A stretch of DNA of 39,982 bases from a virus. The stretch lies in IMG/VR virus record IMGVR_UViG_3300047409_000485, positions 1 through 39,982 of that record; one strand, 5' to 3'. The position numbers and the translations under genes were made by a program. Positions 16,995 through 29,747 of the stretch are shown here, in pieces. Position 1 is the stretch's first letter; each line of letters opens with the position of its first letter. Under the pieces are notes generated by a model. The model was not told the DNA's origin. It searched no databases and worked only from the letters and a program-made list of their open reading frames with translations.

Positions 16995-17216
16995 TCACAC
17001 CTCGCCGAGCCGTTCGCGAATCTTCGTCAGGTTCTCATCCAAGCGCTCACCAGTGTGGTGATTGAGGACCCAACAAAGCACGGTCAGGGTAATCTGGCCG
17101 CCCTCTTTTTCGGCATCTGTGAAAATGGCGGCCTTCCAAGCCTGGTCCAGTAGATCATGCGCTGCGCGTACCTCTTCCAACGACTTCGGCATCGGGTGGC
17201 CGTTTGTTCCAGTCAT
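16995..17216 (-). CDS. Hypothetical small helical protein
   Basis: A 73-aa protein, not recognised. Residues about 10-60 read as two to three helices (SLEEVRAAHDLLDQAWKAAI, and TLTVLCWVLNHHTGERLDEN). Its start overlaps the stop of the ParB-radical SAM gene as ATGA, so it belongs to that transcript and may be coupled to it. Confidence 0.6.
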   Translation of the reverse strand: MTGTNGHPMPKSLEEVRAAHDLLDQAWKAAIFTDAEKEGGQITLTVLCWVLNHHTGERLDENLTKIRERLGEV

Positions 17217-18751
17217 CGAGTCGCCGCCATCTCCTTGGCATAGGCACGCGGCTCCAGCACATCGCGCTGCAGGTAGCGCATGTGGAACGCGTCAGGCACG
17301 TTCAGCGGCGCCACCAACTCGCCGCCAGGGTATTCACGCGTGCGATCGTAGAGGTTGGATTTGTGATAGATGCGAGCGCCAGCTGCTCGTGCCTGGCGTT
17401 CCAGATCGGCTACCCAGCTCAACGGCGGATGCCATTCCGGCGTCTCCGTCGACCGTGACGCACCACCCATGACCAACCAATCGAAGCGGTCCAGGTGCTC
17501 GAAGTGCAACGGCTCGAGTAGTGGCTCCAGGCTGAGCCAACGGACCGTCGCGCGCACATTGGCAAACGCTGCCTCCGCATTCTTGACGCGAGCCTGCGCA
17601 TCGACCGTGGTGCCCACCCATGCGTTCGCAGGGAAGTCGATCTCAGCGAGACGCTGCGGGAACTTGGTGAGAAAAAGGAAGTTCCATTGCGGGTTGGCCG
17701 CGACGCGCGCGAGCACGGCGTCGATCCAGGCCCGCGGCACCCATCGACCGAACAAGTCGGCCATCGAGCACGTGAAAACGTTTCGGTAGCCGATGTCGCG
17801 GGCAGCAGTCGGTGGGACTCGTGTGTGCTCCGGTGCGCTCAGCCGTTCAGGAAGGAAGGTTGGGACGAACCCTTGAGGGAATGGCGACATGCGCGAGTGG
17901 CCAAGTGCGATATCGCGGGCGTAGCAGTACGAACAATCGTGCTTGCAGCCCGTGACTGGGTTCCACGACCAACGGGCCCATTCAATGCTGTCGCTCGTCT
18001 GATCGTTGAACGTCGCGTCGCGCGCGGCTGGCCGCTCGAGAGCTGCCCGTTGCTCGGCCGGCGAGAGTGTGTGCCAAGTCGGAAGTGTGAGCAGCAACGG
18101 GCCAGTTTTTGGCTCCGGCTCACGAGCGGTGTCGGTGAGCAGCCCGTTACGCCGCGCGTGCTGATAGGCGCGATCGACACTCTTGCCATTGAGCGTCGAT
18201 CGCAACTCGGTCGCGTGCTCGACGTCGCCTTGTGCCTGGAGATCGTCGATCGCGTGCACCACGGCCGCGGCCTTCTCCATCGTGCGCGCTTTACGACCAA
18301 GCTTCTGTGCGGCCAGGACTCGAGCTTCGCCATCAGGTTCCGGCAAGTTTGCCGGAACCTGAGACCGACGACCGGAACGAGCCAACGCGCGCTGACGCGC
18401 AAGTCCACGTTCATGCTCAATCTCGCGCAGCACCTCGAACTCGCGGGCGGCCTGCTCGTTGGTCTTGATGCGCTGGCGATTGCTCTCGACCAGCGCTTCG
18501 AGGATGTCGACTTCGTCGCGGCTGCCGAATTCAACGACGGGCACCTCGCCGAGGCCCGCACGCCGAGCCGCAGTCCAGCGGCGGTGGCCAGCGATGATGA
18601 GCCCGTCGTGGGTTACAAGCAGTGGGACCAGCACGCCGCGCTCGCGGACACTGGCGACTAGTTCCTCGTCGGCGTCATCGCCGTAGATTGCCTCGTTGCG
18701 CGGATGCGGCCGCAAGGCATGCACCGGGCGAGTCTGCGATGGGGCGAGCAT
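17213..18751 (-). CDS. ParB-type domain fused to a radical SAM-like Gp37/Gp68 (DUF5131) domain
   Basis: Protein of 512 aa with two clear halves. Residues 1-95 are a ParB/Spo0J-type N-terminal domain: LRPHPRNEAIYGDD, then LIIAGHRRWTAARRAGLGEV, the ParB GxRR-like box, and LVESNRQRI. Residues about 100-205 resemble the ParB helical region. Residues about 245-512 match the phage Gp37/Gp68 (DUF5131) family: EWARWSWNPVTGCKHDCSYC carries a CX3CX2C cluster (C269, C273, C276), as in radical SAM enzymes that bind an iron-sulfur cluster. FLFLTKFPQRL, WVGTTVD and WLSLEPLLEPL follow. The start is fixed by TGATG overlap with the TcmP-like gene. The biochemical target is unknown. Confidence 0.8.
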   Translation of the reverse strand: MLAPSQTRPVHALRPHPRNEAIYGDDADEELVASVRERGVLVPLLVTHDGLIIAGHRRWTAARRAGLGEVPVVEFGSRDEVDILEALVESNRQRIKTNEQAAREFEVLREIEHERGLARQRALARSGRRSQVPANLPEPDGEARVLAAQKLGRKARTMEKAAAVVHAIDDLQAQGDVEHATELRSTLNGKSVDRAYQHARRNGLLTDTAREPEPKTGPLLLTLPTWHTLSPAEQRAALERPAARDATFNDQTSDSIEWARWSWNPVTGCKHDCSYCYARDIALGHSRMSPFPQGFVPTFLPERLSAPEHTRVPPTAARDIGYRNVFTCSMADLFGRWVPRAWIDAVLARVAANPQWNFLFLTKFPQRLAEIDFPANAWVGTTVDAQARVKNAEAAFANVRATVRWLSLEPLLEPLHFEHLDRFDWLVMGGASRSTETPEWHPPLSWVADLERQARAAGARIYHKSNLYDRTREYPGGELVAPLNVPDAFHMRYLQRDVLEPRAYAKEMAATR

Positions 18752-19665
18752 CAGTCCAGGTCCTCGAGAAAGGACGGTTGGTCGCGCGCGAGTCGATCTT
18801 TGGCCGTCAGGCATAACGTGTCCCATCGTGCCTTGCCCTCCGGGCTGTCCTTCGGCACAAGACCGGCACGTTTCAGACTGTCCGCCCATGGCGCCCAGTC
18901 CGTGCCAACGAACCAGACCCATTGCCAGTTCGCGCGCGTTTGACCGATGAACCAGAACTTCTTGCCACACGCGACGAGCTGCTCCTCGAGCGGAATCGCG
19001 CCTTTGCCCCGCCGCCATTTCGGAACCGCGGCGGCGACATGTAACGCGTAGTCGACCATGTGCAATTCGCGCATCTTGCCCAGTGCGTGTAGCGCCTCGT
19101 AGCCAGGCTCCCCGTTCGTGTCCATCGTAATCAGGCCCCAGGTCGGTTCCTGCCGCGGTGGCGGGACGTGATCCCGCACCCAGGGCACGGCGAGCTTGGC
19201 GTGATCGCCTTCGAGCACATCAACCCGCCCGAGGTCGAGACGTGTATGTTTCACGCCTTCGTCGAGCCGCTGCCTGAGCAGCGTCACCAGCTTGGGGTTC
19301 TGTTCGATCAAGCCGACGTGGTAGTTGAGTCCGAATTCCCGTCGAACCTTCTCGCACACGGCCAACAAGAGCAGGGCGGTGCCGCGCAGGTGTGTCGCCG
19401 GCTCATTCTTGCCCTGCCACACGTAGGCACCGCAGGCGGCCGTGAGATCGAGACCGATGTATGAGCCATCCCACAATCCACGCTGCTGGCGCCCGGTCAG
19501 GATGTTTTTGACGGTGTAGACGTTTGACCGCGCGATGGCGCCGTACTCATTCAACTTCCAGCTGGTGAACGGACCCATTCCAACGCCGGGCGGATTGACT
19601 GGCCAGTTGCAGTCACCCTCGACGTGGCGGTGGGGATCGCCTGGTTCGCTAGTCTGAGGAGGCAT
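18751..19665 (-). CDS. TcmP-like three-Cys-motif partner protein (methyltransferase-like fold)
   Basis: Protein of 304 aa coupled by TGATG to the ParB-radical SAM gene. It contains a Rossmann-like segment GSYIGLDLTAACGAYVWQG (about residues 90-110), LNYHVGLIEQNPKLVTLLRQ (an acidic residue at a strand end, as in SAM-binding folds) and a later WGLITMDTNGEP. The arrangement resembles TcmP proteins, which are known mainly as obligate neighbours of three-Cys (DUF5131) proteins. The similarity is distant and the identification leans on the neighbour. An N-terminal GPFTSWKLNEY segment precedes. GGGAG lies about 10 bases upstream of the ATG. Confidence 0.55.
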   Translation of the reverse strand: MPPQTSEPGDPHRHVEGDCNWPVNPPGVGMGPFTSWKLNEYGAIARSNVYTVKNILTGRQQRGLWDGSYIGLDLTAACGAYVWQGKNEPATHLRGTALLLLAVCEKVRREFGLNYHVGLIEQNPKLVTLLRQRLDEGVKHTRLDLGRVDVLEGDHAKLAVPWVRDHVPPPRQEPTWGLITMDTNGEPGYEALHALGKMRELHMVDYALHVAAAVPKWRRGKGAIPLEEQLVACGKKFWFIGQTRANWQWVWFVGTDWAPWADSLKRAGLVPKDSPEGKARWDTLCLTAKDRLARDQPSFLEDLD

Positions 19666-20493: not shown

Positions 20494-20807
20494 GACGACG
20501 CCCCGTTGCGATTCCGGCGCTCCGCCACGGCCGCCCGTTTGGCCAGCACCTGCTCACGGCTGCGGTTGTGCTTCAGGTAGTCGTGCAGCTGCCACCCGCC
20601 CGTCACCGGCACCCACATGCGGGCACCAACGAGCCGCTCGATTCCGATCCGGACGCCTTTCAGGTTGGGTAGCGCACCCGTAGGAATGAAGCCGTCGGTT
20701 AGCTCGTCGTCGCAGTAACTGATGCCCCAGGCATGCATGAACCCGCCCTCCACGCCCAGGCTGAGCACCTTCGGATTGCTGTGCCAATGCGTATCCAACA
20801 CCGCCAT
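20490..20807 (-). CDS. Short replication-initiator/primosome-type DNA-binding protein
   Basis: A 105-aa protein resembling the N-terminal domain of replication (replisome-organiser-like) proteins of GC-rich Gram-positive phages. It starts AVLDTHWHSNPKVLSLG, then has HAWGISYCDDELTDGFIPTG and MWVPVTGGWQLHDYLKHNRS. It ends in a basic helix REQVLAKRAAVAERRNRNG. Family members usually continue with a linker and another domain; here a TGA stops it. The same frame after that TGA reads on for about 39 codons with three [GS]T[VI]P repeats and a PVPFPE end, as if a tail had been cut off. Starts at an ATG sharing one base with the HNH stop (TGATG-like). Confidence 0.6.
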   Translation of the reverse strand: MAVLDTHWHSNPKVLSLGVEGGFMHAWGISYCDDELTDGFIPTGALPNLKGVRIGIERLVGARMWVPVTGGWQLHDYLKHNRSREQVLAKRAAVAERRNRNGASS

Positions 20808-21130
20808 TAGCCCACCTCCACCGCCAGCATTGCCCGCCAGAAACGGTCCGAAGCCGCCAGCCGCTCAGCAGCCACCTCGCGCCCAGTGCGCGCCTGCTCC
20901 TGTTGTTCCCGCAGCCACGCGAGCGCCTCGGTGCGCGTGCGGTGAATCGGCTTCAGCGATCGATTGCATCCCTGACACATGAGCACCAGGTTCGCCTCGG
21001 TGTCGTCGCCGCCGACGATGCGATCGATCAGGTGGCCGGCGTCCCACACCCTGCCGACGCGGCTCAGGCACACCTGGCAGCGGCCATGATCACGGCGGTA
21101 GACGCGGCGACGGAGGGTCAGCCAGCTCAT
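20807..21130 (-). CDS. HNH endonuclease
   Basis: A 107-aa protein with a compact HNH nuclease domain: RRRVYRRDHGRCQVCLSRVG (first CxxC), DAGHLIDRIVGGDDTEANLV (catalytic His and Asn) and LMCQGCNRSLKP (second CxxC). The C-terminal 40 residues are a helix rich in Arg, Glu and Ala. The start overlaps the methyltransferase stop. Small HNH proteins in phages are nickases or homing-type nucleases; placement in the replication block rather than beside the terminase makes a packaging role less likely. Confidence 0.8.
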   Translation of the reverse strand: MSWLTLRRRVYRRDHGRCQVCLSRVGRVWDAGHLIDRIVGGDDTEANLVLMCQGCNRSLKPIHRTRTEALAWLREQQEQARTGREVAAERLAASDRFWRAMLAVEVG

Positions 21131-21915
21131 CAGACCCGTGTCCTGACACTTAGCTTCTGCGCCACGCCTCGGCTATCTGTCAGGTTTTGGTGGTACCGCA
21201 GCCGCTCCCGACACGCTCCACCGCACGTTTTCGCATCTCCACGACGAGCTGGGAACCCCCGACCACAGGCCGCGCAGGACCTGAGCAGCGCCACCCCGAT
21301 CGACGTGCAGCGCGGACCGGGGTGCGCGCAGATCCAGTAGCTCCACGCCTTGCGTACGTGCATTTGCCGCCGCCAGCGCGGGTCCGTGGGCGTTGGCTGC
21401 CGCATCTTCGGCACCATCTCGCACACGGTCCAGCCGGCCTGGCGCGCCGCAACCACCAGGTCGACCGCCTGCAACTGCTGGACGCTCGCATGCACCATAT
21501 CGGCGATCTTCGCCAGCAGCACGCCGTCGGCCCGCAGCACCTGTCGCGCGGCCTCGAGGAAGCCCGCGTAGAGGTGGGTGATGTTGTGATGGCCGCGCAG
21601 CTCGCGCGCGGCCGTGCCGTAGGCCATCGACCACGTGCCCTTGCTGAACGCGCGCTCGCCACCATCGGTCTGGTGCGGTGGATCCCAGACCACCAGTTGG
21701 AACGCACCCGTCCCGAACAGTTGCGGCAGCTCCCGCCACTCGCCGACGACATCGACTCCGGGCATCGGCCGCAGGTCGAAGCGCGTCGTCGGCTGATACG
21801 CGCTGCCGCGCCAGATGACGCCGCGCCCCCACGTCGCGTCGAGCACGACCGGCGGCGCCGCGAAGTGCAGTCCGATCAACTGGTCCAGGATCGACGCATC
21901 GGACGAGGGCCGCAT
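21130..21915 (-). CDS. Phage DNA methyltransferase-like protein with C-terminal zinc finger
   Basis: Protein of about 261 aa. Motif I-like VVLDATWGRGVIW lies near residue 25 and a DPPHQTDGG motif (the catalytic DPPx of amino-methyltransferases) near residue 78. HNITHLYAGFLEAARQVLR and DGVLLAKIADMVH follow, in the order usual for class I SAM-dependent enzymes. The C-terminus adds CAACGRGFPARRGDAKTCGG, a four-Cys finger seen on nucleic-acid-binding proteins. No restriction endonuclease partner is adjacent, so it is probably an orphan enzyme protecting phage DNA. ATG at 21915 is chosen; a TTG at 21921 would overlap the preceding stop. Confidence 0.7.
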   Translation of the reverse strand: MRPSSDASILDQLIGLHFAAPPVVLDATWGRGVIWRGSAYQPTTRFDLRPMPGVDVVGEWRELPQLFGTGAFQLVVWDPPHQTDGGERAFSKGTWSMAYGTAARELRGHHNITHLYAGFLEAARQVLRADGVLLAKIADMVHASVQQLQAVDLVVAARQAGWTVCEMVPKMRQPTPTDPRWRRQMHVRKAWSYWICAHPGPRCTSIGVALLRSCAACGRGFPARRGDAKTCGGACRERLRYHQNLTDSRGVAQKLSVRTRV

Positions 21916-21917
21916 GC

Positions 21918-22754
21918 TCAACCCGCCGCGCGCAGCACAGAGAATCCATCACCGAGCAGTTGCTTGGCGGCGGCCACTCTGTCTGAGTAGACGTCCTCGA
22001 GCGCGCGCTCCGCGTTCGGGATGCCGAAGCGCAATTGGAGCCGCGCCTGGTCGTCGACCGAGGCGCGCAGGCGGACGTCGAGCCGATACAACACCCCCTT
22101 GCCGTCCGCACCCGTGTGCCCCTTCAGGATGGGGATGCCGATGGTGAAGTGCGACGGCAGGTCAGCGCTGCCATTCTGCGCGCGCGCGCCGGCCGAGCCC
22201 TCGAACGAGACGTGTGTGCTGCCGTCCTCGTTGAGCGTCGTCGAGGCCGCCTTGGTCACCGTGCCACGCAGGCTGCGCAAGAGCGACGTCAGATCGGCTG
22301 ACGCCGGCTCCACGACGTCCAGCGCGTGGTCCTCGAGGAACTCAATCGCCTCACGCTGCGAGTGCGCGCGTCCGTTGGCCAAGAAGGTCCAGGCCTGCCA
22401 CTCCGCCGAGCGCACGAACGGCATCGTGGCCTTCCACTGCTGGCGGCCGGCGAGGTTGCCGCTGTGATAGTCGAGCACCGCGTGCAGCCCGATCCCGTTC
22501 CACGTGATGAACGTCGCGCCGTCGGCGGTCGAGTACTCCTTGACGTATGACACCCACGACTCGACGTCGCCGAATGCCTCCACGGCGCGGATCGGGCCGA
22601 GGTGCTCCTCATCGGCATACGGGGCGATGACCTGGACCAGGTCCTTGTGGATCCACGTGGCGCCGGTCGCCGTGTCGTGGTGGTAGGCCGGCACCACGAC
22701 ACGCGGCGCGGTCGACTTGTCGGTGGGCTCAGACGGCAGCGTGGTGTCGGCCAT
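21918..22754 (-). CDS. DUF2303 family protein
   Basis: Protein of 278 aa with the features of the DUF2303 (YfdQ-like) family that is widespread in temperate phages near recombination genes. It begins with a polar segment, then RVVVPAYHHDTATGATWIHK and GDVESWVSYVKEY. A strand region TFITWNGIGLHAVLDYH and QAWTFLANGRAHSQREAIEFLEDH follow. The role of the family is not established; its constant place beside RecT/ssDNA-annealing modules suggests DNA metabolism. It overlaps the upstream 116-aa gene by one base. Confidence 0.75.
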   Translation of the reverse strand: MADTTLPSEPTDKSTAPRVVVPAYHHDTATGATWIHKDLVQVIAPYADEEHLGPIRAVEAFGDVESWVSYVKEYSTADGATFITWNGIGLHAVLDYHSGNLAGRQQWKATMPFVRSAEWQAWTFLANGRAHSQREAIEFLEDHALDVVEPASADLTSLLRSLRGTVTKAASTTLNEDGSTHVSFEGSAGARAQNGSADLPSHFTIGIPILKGHTGADGKGVLYRLDVRLRASVDDQARLQLRFGIPNAERALEDVYSDRVAAAKQLLGDGFSVLRAAG

Positions 22755-24170: not shown

Positions 24171-24304
24171 CAGTGCTTCTTTGCCTCCGCTTTGATAGTC
24201 GCGAGGATCTCTTGTTGTTTCGGCCCGCACGGCCACGTCGTCCCGCACTTACCGCACACCAGCTTGTGCCGCTCGAAGTCCTTGACCATGACGTGCTCGC
24301 TCAT
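24170..24304 (-). CDS. Small zinc-ribbon peptide
   Basis: A 44-aa protein containing LVCGKCGTTWPCGPKQQ, a three-Cys cluster that likely binds zinc, followed by a short basic helix EILATIKAEAKKH. It overlaps the HNH gene upstream (ATGA) and RecT downstream (TGATG). Such tiny zinc proteins are common between early phage genes. Function unknown. Confidence 0.65.
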   Translation of the reverse strand: MSEHVMVKDFERHKLVCGKCGTTWPCGPKQQEILATIKAEAKKH

Positions 24305-24908
24305 CGGGCAAGTCTCCGGGCCTTCCAGTAAGCGCGATTCTTCGCGTATTCCTCTTCACGGTGTGCTGCGAGATAGACCCGCCGTTTCGCCCTACTACAC
24401 GTCTTGCAGTAGCTAGATCCATCCTTGTGCTTGCCGTCACGTTCGTGGCCTTTTGGACACAACGGCGACCGTGGCCAATGACCAACAAGCGGAGAACGCT
24501 GAATATTCACTTGCCGAGTGACAGTCTCAAGATGGTCGGGCTTGACGCAGTGCCGCACGCGACAGAGATGGTCAATCTCCAACTCCTCAGGAATCACGCC
24601 TTTCGCCCAGACGTAAGCGAGTCGGTGAGCGTAAAACTGTCGTATACCGATATTGAATTTTCCGTAGCCGACGCCGTTCTGGTGGCTCGTCCAGAGCCAG
24701 CATGACGCGGTCTTGTCGACCTTCGTCCAGAACCGGCGCAGCACATCGAGCGAGGGGTCCGCCAATTCCGCCTCAACATTGCGAGCGCGAGCCTTGTTCT
24801 TGGCGGTGTTCGAACATGTGACCGAGCAATAACGGCTCGTGTTTTTGAGCGCTGGAAAGCCCTGACCGCAATACTCACAAGAGATCGTTGGAGGATGGCG
24901 GCGGGGCA

Positions 24909-24909
<1 letters not shown>
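24301..24909 (-). CDS. HNH homing-type endonuclease with N-terminal zinc finger
   Basis: Protein of 202 aa. Residues 8-35 hold CEYCGQGFPALKNTSRYC and SVTC, a four-Cys finger. The nuclease core is CWLWTSHQNGVGYGKFNIG, then FYAHRLAYVWAKGVIP and EELEIDHLCRVRHCVKPDHLE (the H-N-H signature), as in phage HNH proteins often found as mobile intruders. A further CPKGHERDGKHKDGSSYCKTC finger follows. The start overlaps the Rpf gene stop (TGATG). The DNA of this gene is visibly less GC-rich than its neighbours, consistent with recent arrival. Confidence 0.85.
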
Positions 24910-25554
<645 letters not shown>

Positions 25555-28478: not shown

Positions 28479-29747
28479 TCACTGGGCCGATTCCAGTCGG
28501 GCGCCCTTGCGCCGCGAGTGCGGCCGGCCGGCGAACTTCGACCGCACGGGCAGTTTCAAGATGCCCGTGCCTGCCGCCGCGGGATAGTGCGCCACCATCA
28601 AGTCGACGTACTCGTCGAGGTGCTCGTCGGTGACGTGCTGGTAGCGGTCGAGCATGCTGCGGTCGCTCCAACCGCAGACCTCCATGACGATGCGGTCCGG
28701 CACGCCGGCGCTGAGCATCTTGGTCGCGGCCGTGTGCCGCCAGTCGTGGACGCGGTGGTGGTCGACGCCCGCGAGCTTCTCGAGCCTGGCCAGCTCGTGG
28801 TTGACGTTGGCCGGATGGATTGGCGTGCCGATCTCGCTGGGGAAGACCAGGTCGTGGTCGGTCCACAAGTCGGCCGCATGGTCGCGCAGTTCCGCGACGC
28901 GGGCACGCTGGTGCTCAAGTGCCTCGGCGACGATCGGCAGTAACGAGAAGCTACGGCGACCGGCGCGGGTCTTGGGCCGCGGCTTGAACGTCCAGGGTTG
29001 GCCGGACCGCCAGACGAGCGTTTGACGAATCTGGATCCGACCGCGTGGCAGGTCGACGTCTTGCCAGCGCAGACCGAGAAACTCGCCCTTGCGCAGGCCG
29101 GTCCAGACGCCAAAGGTGAGCAGGTGTTCCATGCCGCGGCCGACCGCGGCCGCGAGCAGGCGATCGCTTTCGTCGTCGGACAGGCCGTCGATGTTGATCG
29201 GGTCCTCGTCGGCCTTGATGCTGATGCGCTCAGCGGCGTTGGTACCGATCCAGCCCCAGTCGACGGCGGCGCGCAGGATCATCTGCAGGATCGTGATGTG
29301 CTTGCGGACGGTGCCATGGCGCAACGTCTTGCGCTGAGCGTTGGCGTAGCGCTGGACGTCGAGTCGGCTCAGGTCCTCGAGGCTGGTTCGTCCGAGCGCT
29401 TTCTTGAATGCGTTGGCCACGCGCACGTACTCGCCGCGCGTGCTGGCCTCCTTTTGCGAAGCGATCGTCTCGACCCAGGCATCGATGGCGTCGGCGAGCG
29501 TCCGTTGGTGGTTCTGGTCACGTGGTCGGAGCCCGTTGCGCTCCTCGTACTCGAGGTCGCGTGCAGCGAGCAGGGCGAGCTCCTCGCTGCCCTTGCCGCG
29601 AGTCTTGCCACGAGTACCGTCGGGGCGCGTCCACTGGCCATACCAGAGCCCCTTGGCTGTGTCGTAGAAGGCCGAACCCTCGCCATTGCCGCGGCGCCCG
29701 TGAGGTTGGCGCTCACGCGGGCGAATGCCGTCGCCGCGGCTAGCCAC
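28479..29747 (-). CDS. int: Tyrosine recombinase, phage integrase
   Basis: Protein of 422 aa that recombines attP with a host tRNA gene. An N-terminal AP2-like domain (GLWYGQWTRPDGTRGKTRGK) binds arm sites. A core-binding domain follows (DAIDAWVETIASQKEASTRG). The catalytic domain holds the first Arg in GVWTGLRKGEFLGLRWQDV, HDWRHTAATKML (His-x-x-Arg), then CGWSDRSMLDRYQHV with a His/Trp-position residue and the nucleophilic Tyr. GTG start; its first codons overlap an 8-codon leader frame. The gene ends beside five GGGGAGCAATT repeats and a strong terminator. Full-length and apparently intact. Confidence 0.93.
   Translation of the reverse strand: MASRGDGIRPRERQPHGRRGNGEGSAFYDTAKGLWYGQWTRPDGTRGKTRGKGSEELALLAARDLEYEERNGLRPRDQNHQRTLADAIDAWVETIASQKEASTRGEYVRVANAFKKALGRTSLEDLSRLDVQRYANAQRKTLRHGTVRKHITILQMILRAAVDWGWIGTNAAERISIKADEDPINIDGLSDDESDRLLAAAVGRGMEHLLTFGVWTGLRKGEFLGLRWQDVDLPRGRIQIRQTLVWRSGQPWTFKPRPKTRAGRRSFSLLPIVAEALEHQRARVAELRDHAADLWTDHDLVFPSEIGTPIHPANVNHELARLEKLAGVDHHRVHDWRHTAATKMLSAGVPDRIVMEVCGWSDRSMLDRYQHVTDEHLDEYVDLMVAHYPAAAGTGILKLPVRSKFAGRPHSRRKGARLESAQ

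Follow-up and report, generated by a model that had tools for sequence, protein, structure and literature searches.

A ParB-DUF5131 fusion and a TcmP-like partner with an RlmJ fold in a temperate phage suggest a nucleic-acid-modifying cassette with exchangeable modules

A 39,982-base stretch of virus DNA (the window, considered here at its whole length) has nearly every gene on the minus strand and carries a gene joining a ParB-type domain to a DUF5131 (Gp37/Gp68) domain, coupled to a second gene which resembles TcmP. The question that this locus raises is what a phage does with such a pair. The features needed to introduce it are the following:

17213..18751, minus strand: ParB-DUF5131 fusion P0001, 512 aa (Pfam domain matches, relatives, predicted structure)
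18751..19665, minus strand: TcmP-like partner P0002 with an RlmJ fold, 304 aa (family links, predicted structure)
16995..17216, minus strand: 73-aa ORF overlapping the fusion stop codon (ATGA)
28479-29747, minus strand: integrase (phrog_1, 6e-64)

Because of the integrase we considered the phage as temperate. The window also carries RecT, HNH, methyltransferase-like and terminase genes, and the cassette is placed in the early region, flanked by the methyltransferase and HNH genes and by the terminase, about 2 kb upstream of the gene for the terminase large subunit. This adjacency was rejected as a rule for the cassette: among the 17 records of relatives having a terminase match, only L014, L017 and L024 have the terminase no more than 5 kb downstream. 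Three further proteins of the window, all encoded on the minus strand, were recorded: a 263-aa DNA-methyltransferase-like protein (21130-21921; phrog_24333, 2e-18), whose C-terminal stretch matches phrog_6975; a 107-aa HNH protein (20807-21130) resembling the HNH part of IscB (NF040563, 1e-8, below the cut-off); and an HNH endonuclease-like protein (24301-25146; phrog_826, 4e-39).

The original prediction placed the start of the fusion inside the stop codon of the 304-aa gene, and this is what we found: at the junction, TGATG, the start codon ATG of the fusion shares its A with the stop codon of P0002, giving a one-base overlap. The mechanically called ORF of the fusion is 601 aa in length, and the 512-aa start was chosen because it fits this overlap. 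The three-gene unit that had also been proposed did not find support. Precisely, relatives of the 73-aa ORF were present in only two loci (L007 and L016), so this ORF does not belong constantly to the cassette and was rejected as a third component; where a third gene is present, an HNH ORF separates the members of the pair.

Scanning the viral contigs with P0001 yielded 35 loci, corresponding to 29 distinct ones (L018, L019 and L029 equal L017, L021 and L022 equal L020, and L034 is cut). Many relatives of the fusion were found, with 35-66% identity over the alignment, and a P0002-like gene is directly upstream and on the same strand in 27 of the 29 distinct viral loci; hence, the pair is not a chance association, and the partner does occur near homologues, as the original prediction demanded. 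For the fusions of L028 and L032 no partner was found either upstream or anywhere in their whole records. Among 50,697 phage records, none covers 80% of the fusion. ParB-fused copies occur also in bacterial and archaeal genome contigs. The small HNH gene separates the pair in L037, L041 and L053 as well as in 10 of the distinct viral loci, and is absent from the pair of the window; its motif, CxxC..E.HH..YP.WG.FD, was read in L005, L014, L016, L017, L020, L023, L024, L025, L030, L035, L037, L041 and L053.

As regards other phages, Gordonia phage Bakery and Dulem virus 34 have DNA methylase genes that adjoin DUF5131 or are one gene away from it, and Gordonia phage Easley and Synechococcus phage Ssp-JY39 each have a TcmP-like gene that adjoins DUF5131 and is read from the opposite strand. 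The TcmP-like gene of Easley is gp39, labelled 'methyltransferase' (L119:4265-5380, minus strand), and that of Ssp-JY39 is at L121:4190-5107 (minus strand). Beside bare DUF5131 genes we also noticed, by eye, ASCH-domain-like ORFs together with a PP-loop-like protein of L078 (L070:6969-7406, L078:6753-7070 and L078:4697-5698).

Within the fusion, all on the minus strand, we considered the following parts:

18485..18706: ParB_N / CTPase-type domain, residues 16-89 (Pfam 8e-11; ParB structures with Z 13.8 over 90 residues)
18149..18460: helical part following ParB_N, residues 98-201 (included in the alignments with KorB-, Noc- and ParB-type structures)
18011..18020: module boundary, about codon 246 (where DNA similarity starts with L002, L006-L008, L015, L017 and others)
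17357..17989: DUF5131 radical-SAM-like domain, residues 255-465 (Pfam, predicted fold, alignments)
17924..17947: CX3CX2C cluster, C269/C273/C276 (invariant in alignments)

Both domain assignments of the original prediction proved right. In Pfam, P0001 matches ParB_N (PF02195) with 42.2 bits against a gathering cut-off of 26.3, and DUF5131 (PF07505) with 137 bits against 28.9. The predicted front half matches the ParB structure 7bnk (Z 13.8), and on the predicted model the KorB and Noc structures span both the front domain and the helical part (8qa9, residues 4-203; 7nfu, residues 2-204). Like the ParB, Noc and KorB CTPases, therefore, P0001 has a CTPase-type domain followed by a helical part; unlike them, it is fused to an enzyme and its ParB box, IIAGHRRWTAAR (residues 52-63), reads GHRR (residues 55-58) in place of GERR, the relatives having mostly GHxR. 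The hydrolysis of CTP, which had been suggested on the basis of the ParB family, is doubtful here because the glutamate of GERR is a His in P0001. The ParB half also matches the ParB domains of phage DNA methyltransferases (phrog_498, 3.5e-12), and annotated methylases are found among its matches (H101, H103-H105, H107 and H109).

For the second half, the three cysteines (C269-X3-C273-X2-C276) are intact as predicted and invariant across 30 relatives. The predicted model of P0001 has quality values of pLDDT 87.4 and pTM 0.59, the latter making the mutual placement of the two halves unsure. The top structural matches of the DUF5131 half of this model are radical-SAM enzymes, the nearest fold being spore photoproduct lyase (SPL; Z 13.7 over 214-222 residues) and the second RlmN (10.9). 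We used the label radical-SAM-like because P0001 gives 15 bits with the Radical SAM family (PF04055), below the cut-off of 29.5.

The first place among the fold matches of spore photoproduct lyase, which also has the CX3CX2C cluster, could indicate a lyase acting on a photoproduct or another lesion of phage DNA, with the TcmP-like protein as an accessory. We consider DNA repair as very unlikely, since it leaves the exchange of partner and front end described below unexplained and since an hhalign comparison with two SPL proteins aligned 13 columns, covering the cysteine cluster only, with no significant match beyond it. The link to this enzyme rests thus on the predicted fold, and the gene context is different as well. 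A sequence search of solved structures returned no match for DUF5131 and none for TcmP.

P0002 by its own sequence had no match in Pfam, NCBIfam, PHROGs, PADLOC, the viral contigs or the 50,697 phage records, so its family was approached through the neighbours of P0001 relatives. The TcmP model of NCBIfam (TIGR04474) is not matched by P0002, and for this reason we call it TcmP-like. Two relatives, L013 (viral) and L065 (bacterial), do pass this model (57.3 bits against a cut-off of 53), a single iterated profile gathers both P0002 and canonical TcmPs, and P0002 adjoins a three-Cys protein, as the definition of TcmP expects. The resemblance to TcmP put forward originally is hence valid at the family level, through L013 and L065, and not at the level of library matches of P0002 itself.

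The AlphaFold model of P0002 (pLDDT 86.7) is closest to RlmJ, the 23S rRNA m6A2030 methyltransferase (DUF519), with Z 15.9, rmsd 3.3 and 212 residues aligned; Trm1 (Z 14.2) and general class I methyltransferases (about 13) come next. An hhalign comparison of the P0002 family with E. coli RlmJ gave an E-value of 4e-6 spanning motifs I-IV, and RlmJ was also matched, weakly and at motif I, in the sequence search of solved structures. RlmJ requires Y4, H6, K18 and D164 (PMC3814359), and two residues of P0002, both on the minus strand, are relevant in this respect:

19120..19122: Asp182 in motif IV (DTNG), invariant in 48/48 and counterpart of the catalytic Asp164 of RlmJ
19555..19557: Lys37, invariant in 48/48 TcmP-like proteins and opposite Lys18 of RlmJ in one of two alignments

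The 48-row alignment of TcmP-like proteins includes bacterial TcmPs. The invariant Lys falls on K18 of RlmJ in a 27-row alignment and opposite a gap in the 48-row one, so we regard Lys37, from these alignments, as the probable counterpart of the catalytic Lys18. Positions contacting SAM are kept (S100 is S/T in 46/48, E118 is D/E in 44/48). P0002 thus shares with RlmJ the fold, motif I, the GS/TP motif, the acid of motif II and the invariant Asp. Unlike RlmJ, it has no PPY in motif IV, where DPPY is replaced by DPNG in most relatives and by DTNG in P0002, and in the partner family nothing is aligned opposite W195. Adenine-N6 methylation by the exact chemistry of RlmJ is not implied, as motif IV is DPNG/DTNG and not DPPY, and we infer that the partner is a SAM-dependent transferase of the RlmJ type whose substrate pocket differs from that of RlmJ.

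Since RlmJ and RlmN act on RNA, an RNA target is possible: an RlmJ-like enzyme and an RlmN/SPL-like one could modify rRNA or tRNA, that is, the host ribosome or tRNA, during infection. RlmJ, Trm1 and TYW4 are among the closest folds of the partner, and RlmN is the second for the radical-SAM half. We judge this quite unlikely, given that ParB-type front ends are DNA-associated modules and that the best-matching radical-SAM fold belongs to a DNA enzyme.

The relatives differ in which modules surround the radical-SAM domain. On the tree of this domain the front ends (ParB, a helical class H, others, or none) need at least 15 class changes, while shuffles give 26.8. The radical-SAM domain of the window shares 75-80% identity with that of L006 (the range reflecting different columns), whereas the front ends are unrelated, that of L006 being of class H, and the partners are 19% identical. 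When L003 is compared with L004, identity is 94% for the radical-SAM domain, 73% for the front end and 20% for the partner; the DNA boundary is clean, as similarity is present on the upstream side of the partner gene, is absent across this gene and resumes at the start of the fusion, so that only the partner gene was replaced. L041 and L053 show the same pattern (78% vs 16% identical). As regards the H-class front ends, that of L015 had no match in phages, and the plasmid matches of that of L007 were hypothetical proteins only.

KorB and Noc, which align with the front end, are ParB-like regulators, and one could suppose that the main role of the ParB part is in transcription control or partition, and that the radical-SAM part is vestigial or has an unrelated metabolic role. 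This is hardly credible in our opinion: despite the swapping of front ends, the cysteines and most residues of the core do not vary, so the radical-SAM core is what selection keeps. A catalytic core that stays constant while partner and front end are exchanged points to these two as specificity parts, and such swapping suggests an undescribed nucleic-acid-modifying system. The proposal that the ParB module is a built-in tether remains plausible for the window, with the correction that the front end is exchangeable and ParB is not always present.

The original prediction stated that known biology gives no function for the pair. The literature consulted indeed gives none, containing only passing mentions of TcmP, DUF5131 and PDC-M41, and we found there no test of the function of the pair; the pair is already listed, in turn, among the PADLOC candidates, as TcmP (TIGR04474) with DUF5131 (PDC-M41 and PDC-M30). 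The bacterial pairs L080, L092, L104 and L107 have the same two families in the same order with tight coupling, and L080, L104 and L107 match both PDC components. Their DUF5131 proteins, unlike the fusion of the window, are short and have no front end, with a longer first cysteine spacing (e.g. C-X6-C-X2-C) than the CX3CX2C of the phage. Of the two components that PADLOC asks for, P0001 matches PDC-M41B (1e-36), whereas P0002 is too diverged to match the PDC-M41/M30 models and gives no match for component A. The ParB-fused form with an exchangeable partner is a variant of this already listed pair.

The cassette could accordingly be a superinfection defence of the PDC-M41/M30 type borne by the phage, in which the pair would recognise the DNA of a rival or the RNA of the host and chemically damage or modify it, with the ParB domain as the sensor. 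The PADLOC listing and matches just given and the temperate nature of the phage are in favour of it, and defence systems typically show fast exchange of partners and front ends. We consider a defence role as unlikely, though worth keeping in mind: the PDC systems are candidates for which no test was found in the literature, P0002 matches none of their models, and the copy of the window sits in the early region, between the methyltransferase/HNH genes and the terminase.

The reading that we favour is that the phage uses the cassette to modify nucleic acids, with DNA as the most likely target, and we infer this activity and this target with about an even chance of being right. DNA is suggested as the target because DNA methylase genes neighbour DUF5131 in Bakery and Dulem virus 34, and because a ParB domain also fronts phage DNA methyltransferases, such fusions preceding the terminase genes of Paracoccus phages. 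In these phages 36 methyltransferases have an N-terminal ParB domain, all of them upstream of terminase genes, and the same paper quotes a proposal in which modification enzymes are directed by ParB-like proteins when packaging takes place (PMC6536676). The phage ParB-methyltransferase fusions likewise have ParB before a SAM-using enzyme and share the genome region with the window; they differ in that the window has a radical-SAM-like enzyme instead, plus a separate methyltransferase-like partner. Against a DNA-directed reading there are the fusions having no partner (L028 and L032) and the H-class front ends, which have no known DNA-binding function.

If the favoured reading is correct, the ParB-type front end would load or hold the enzyme on DNA, the radical-SAM core would activate or rearrange a C-H of base or sugar, and the TcmP-like partner would either transfer a SAM-derived group to the same target or finish or recognise the site. 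Swapping the front end and the partner would change the site or the variant of the modification, like the specificity parts of restriction-modification systems, and the likely benefit would be that the phage's own genome is protected or marked. More specifically, and only tentatively, the cassette may represent a new class of site-directed DNA base modification, in which a tethered radical-SAM enzyme and then an RlmJ-type SAM transferase would act on one base, and cassettes with swappable tether and transferase would change the specificity or the final chemical group.

Both TcmP and DUF5131 are widespread, and for neither family was a tested function found in the literature consulted. An RlmJ fold for TcmP with an invariant Asp and Lys, and a DUF5131 near to spore photoproduct lyase, allow point mutants and a nucleoside assay to be defined for them and, if the target is DNA, the cassette is possibly a new modification of phage genomes.
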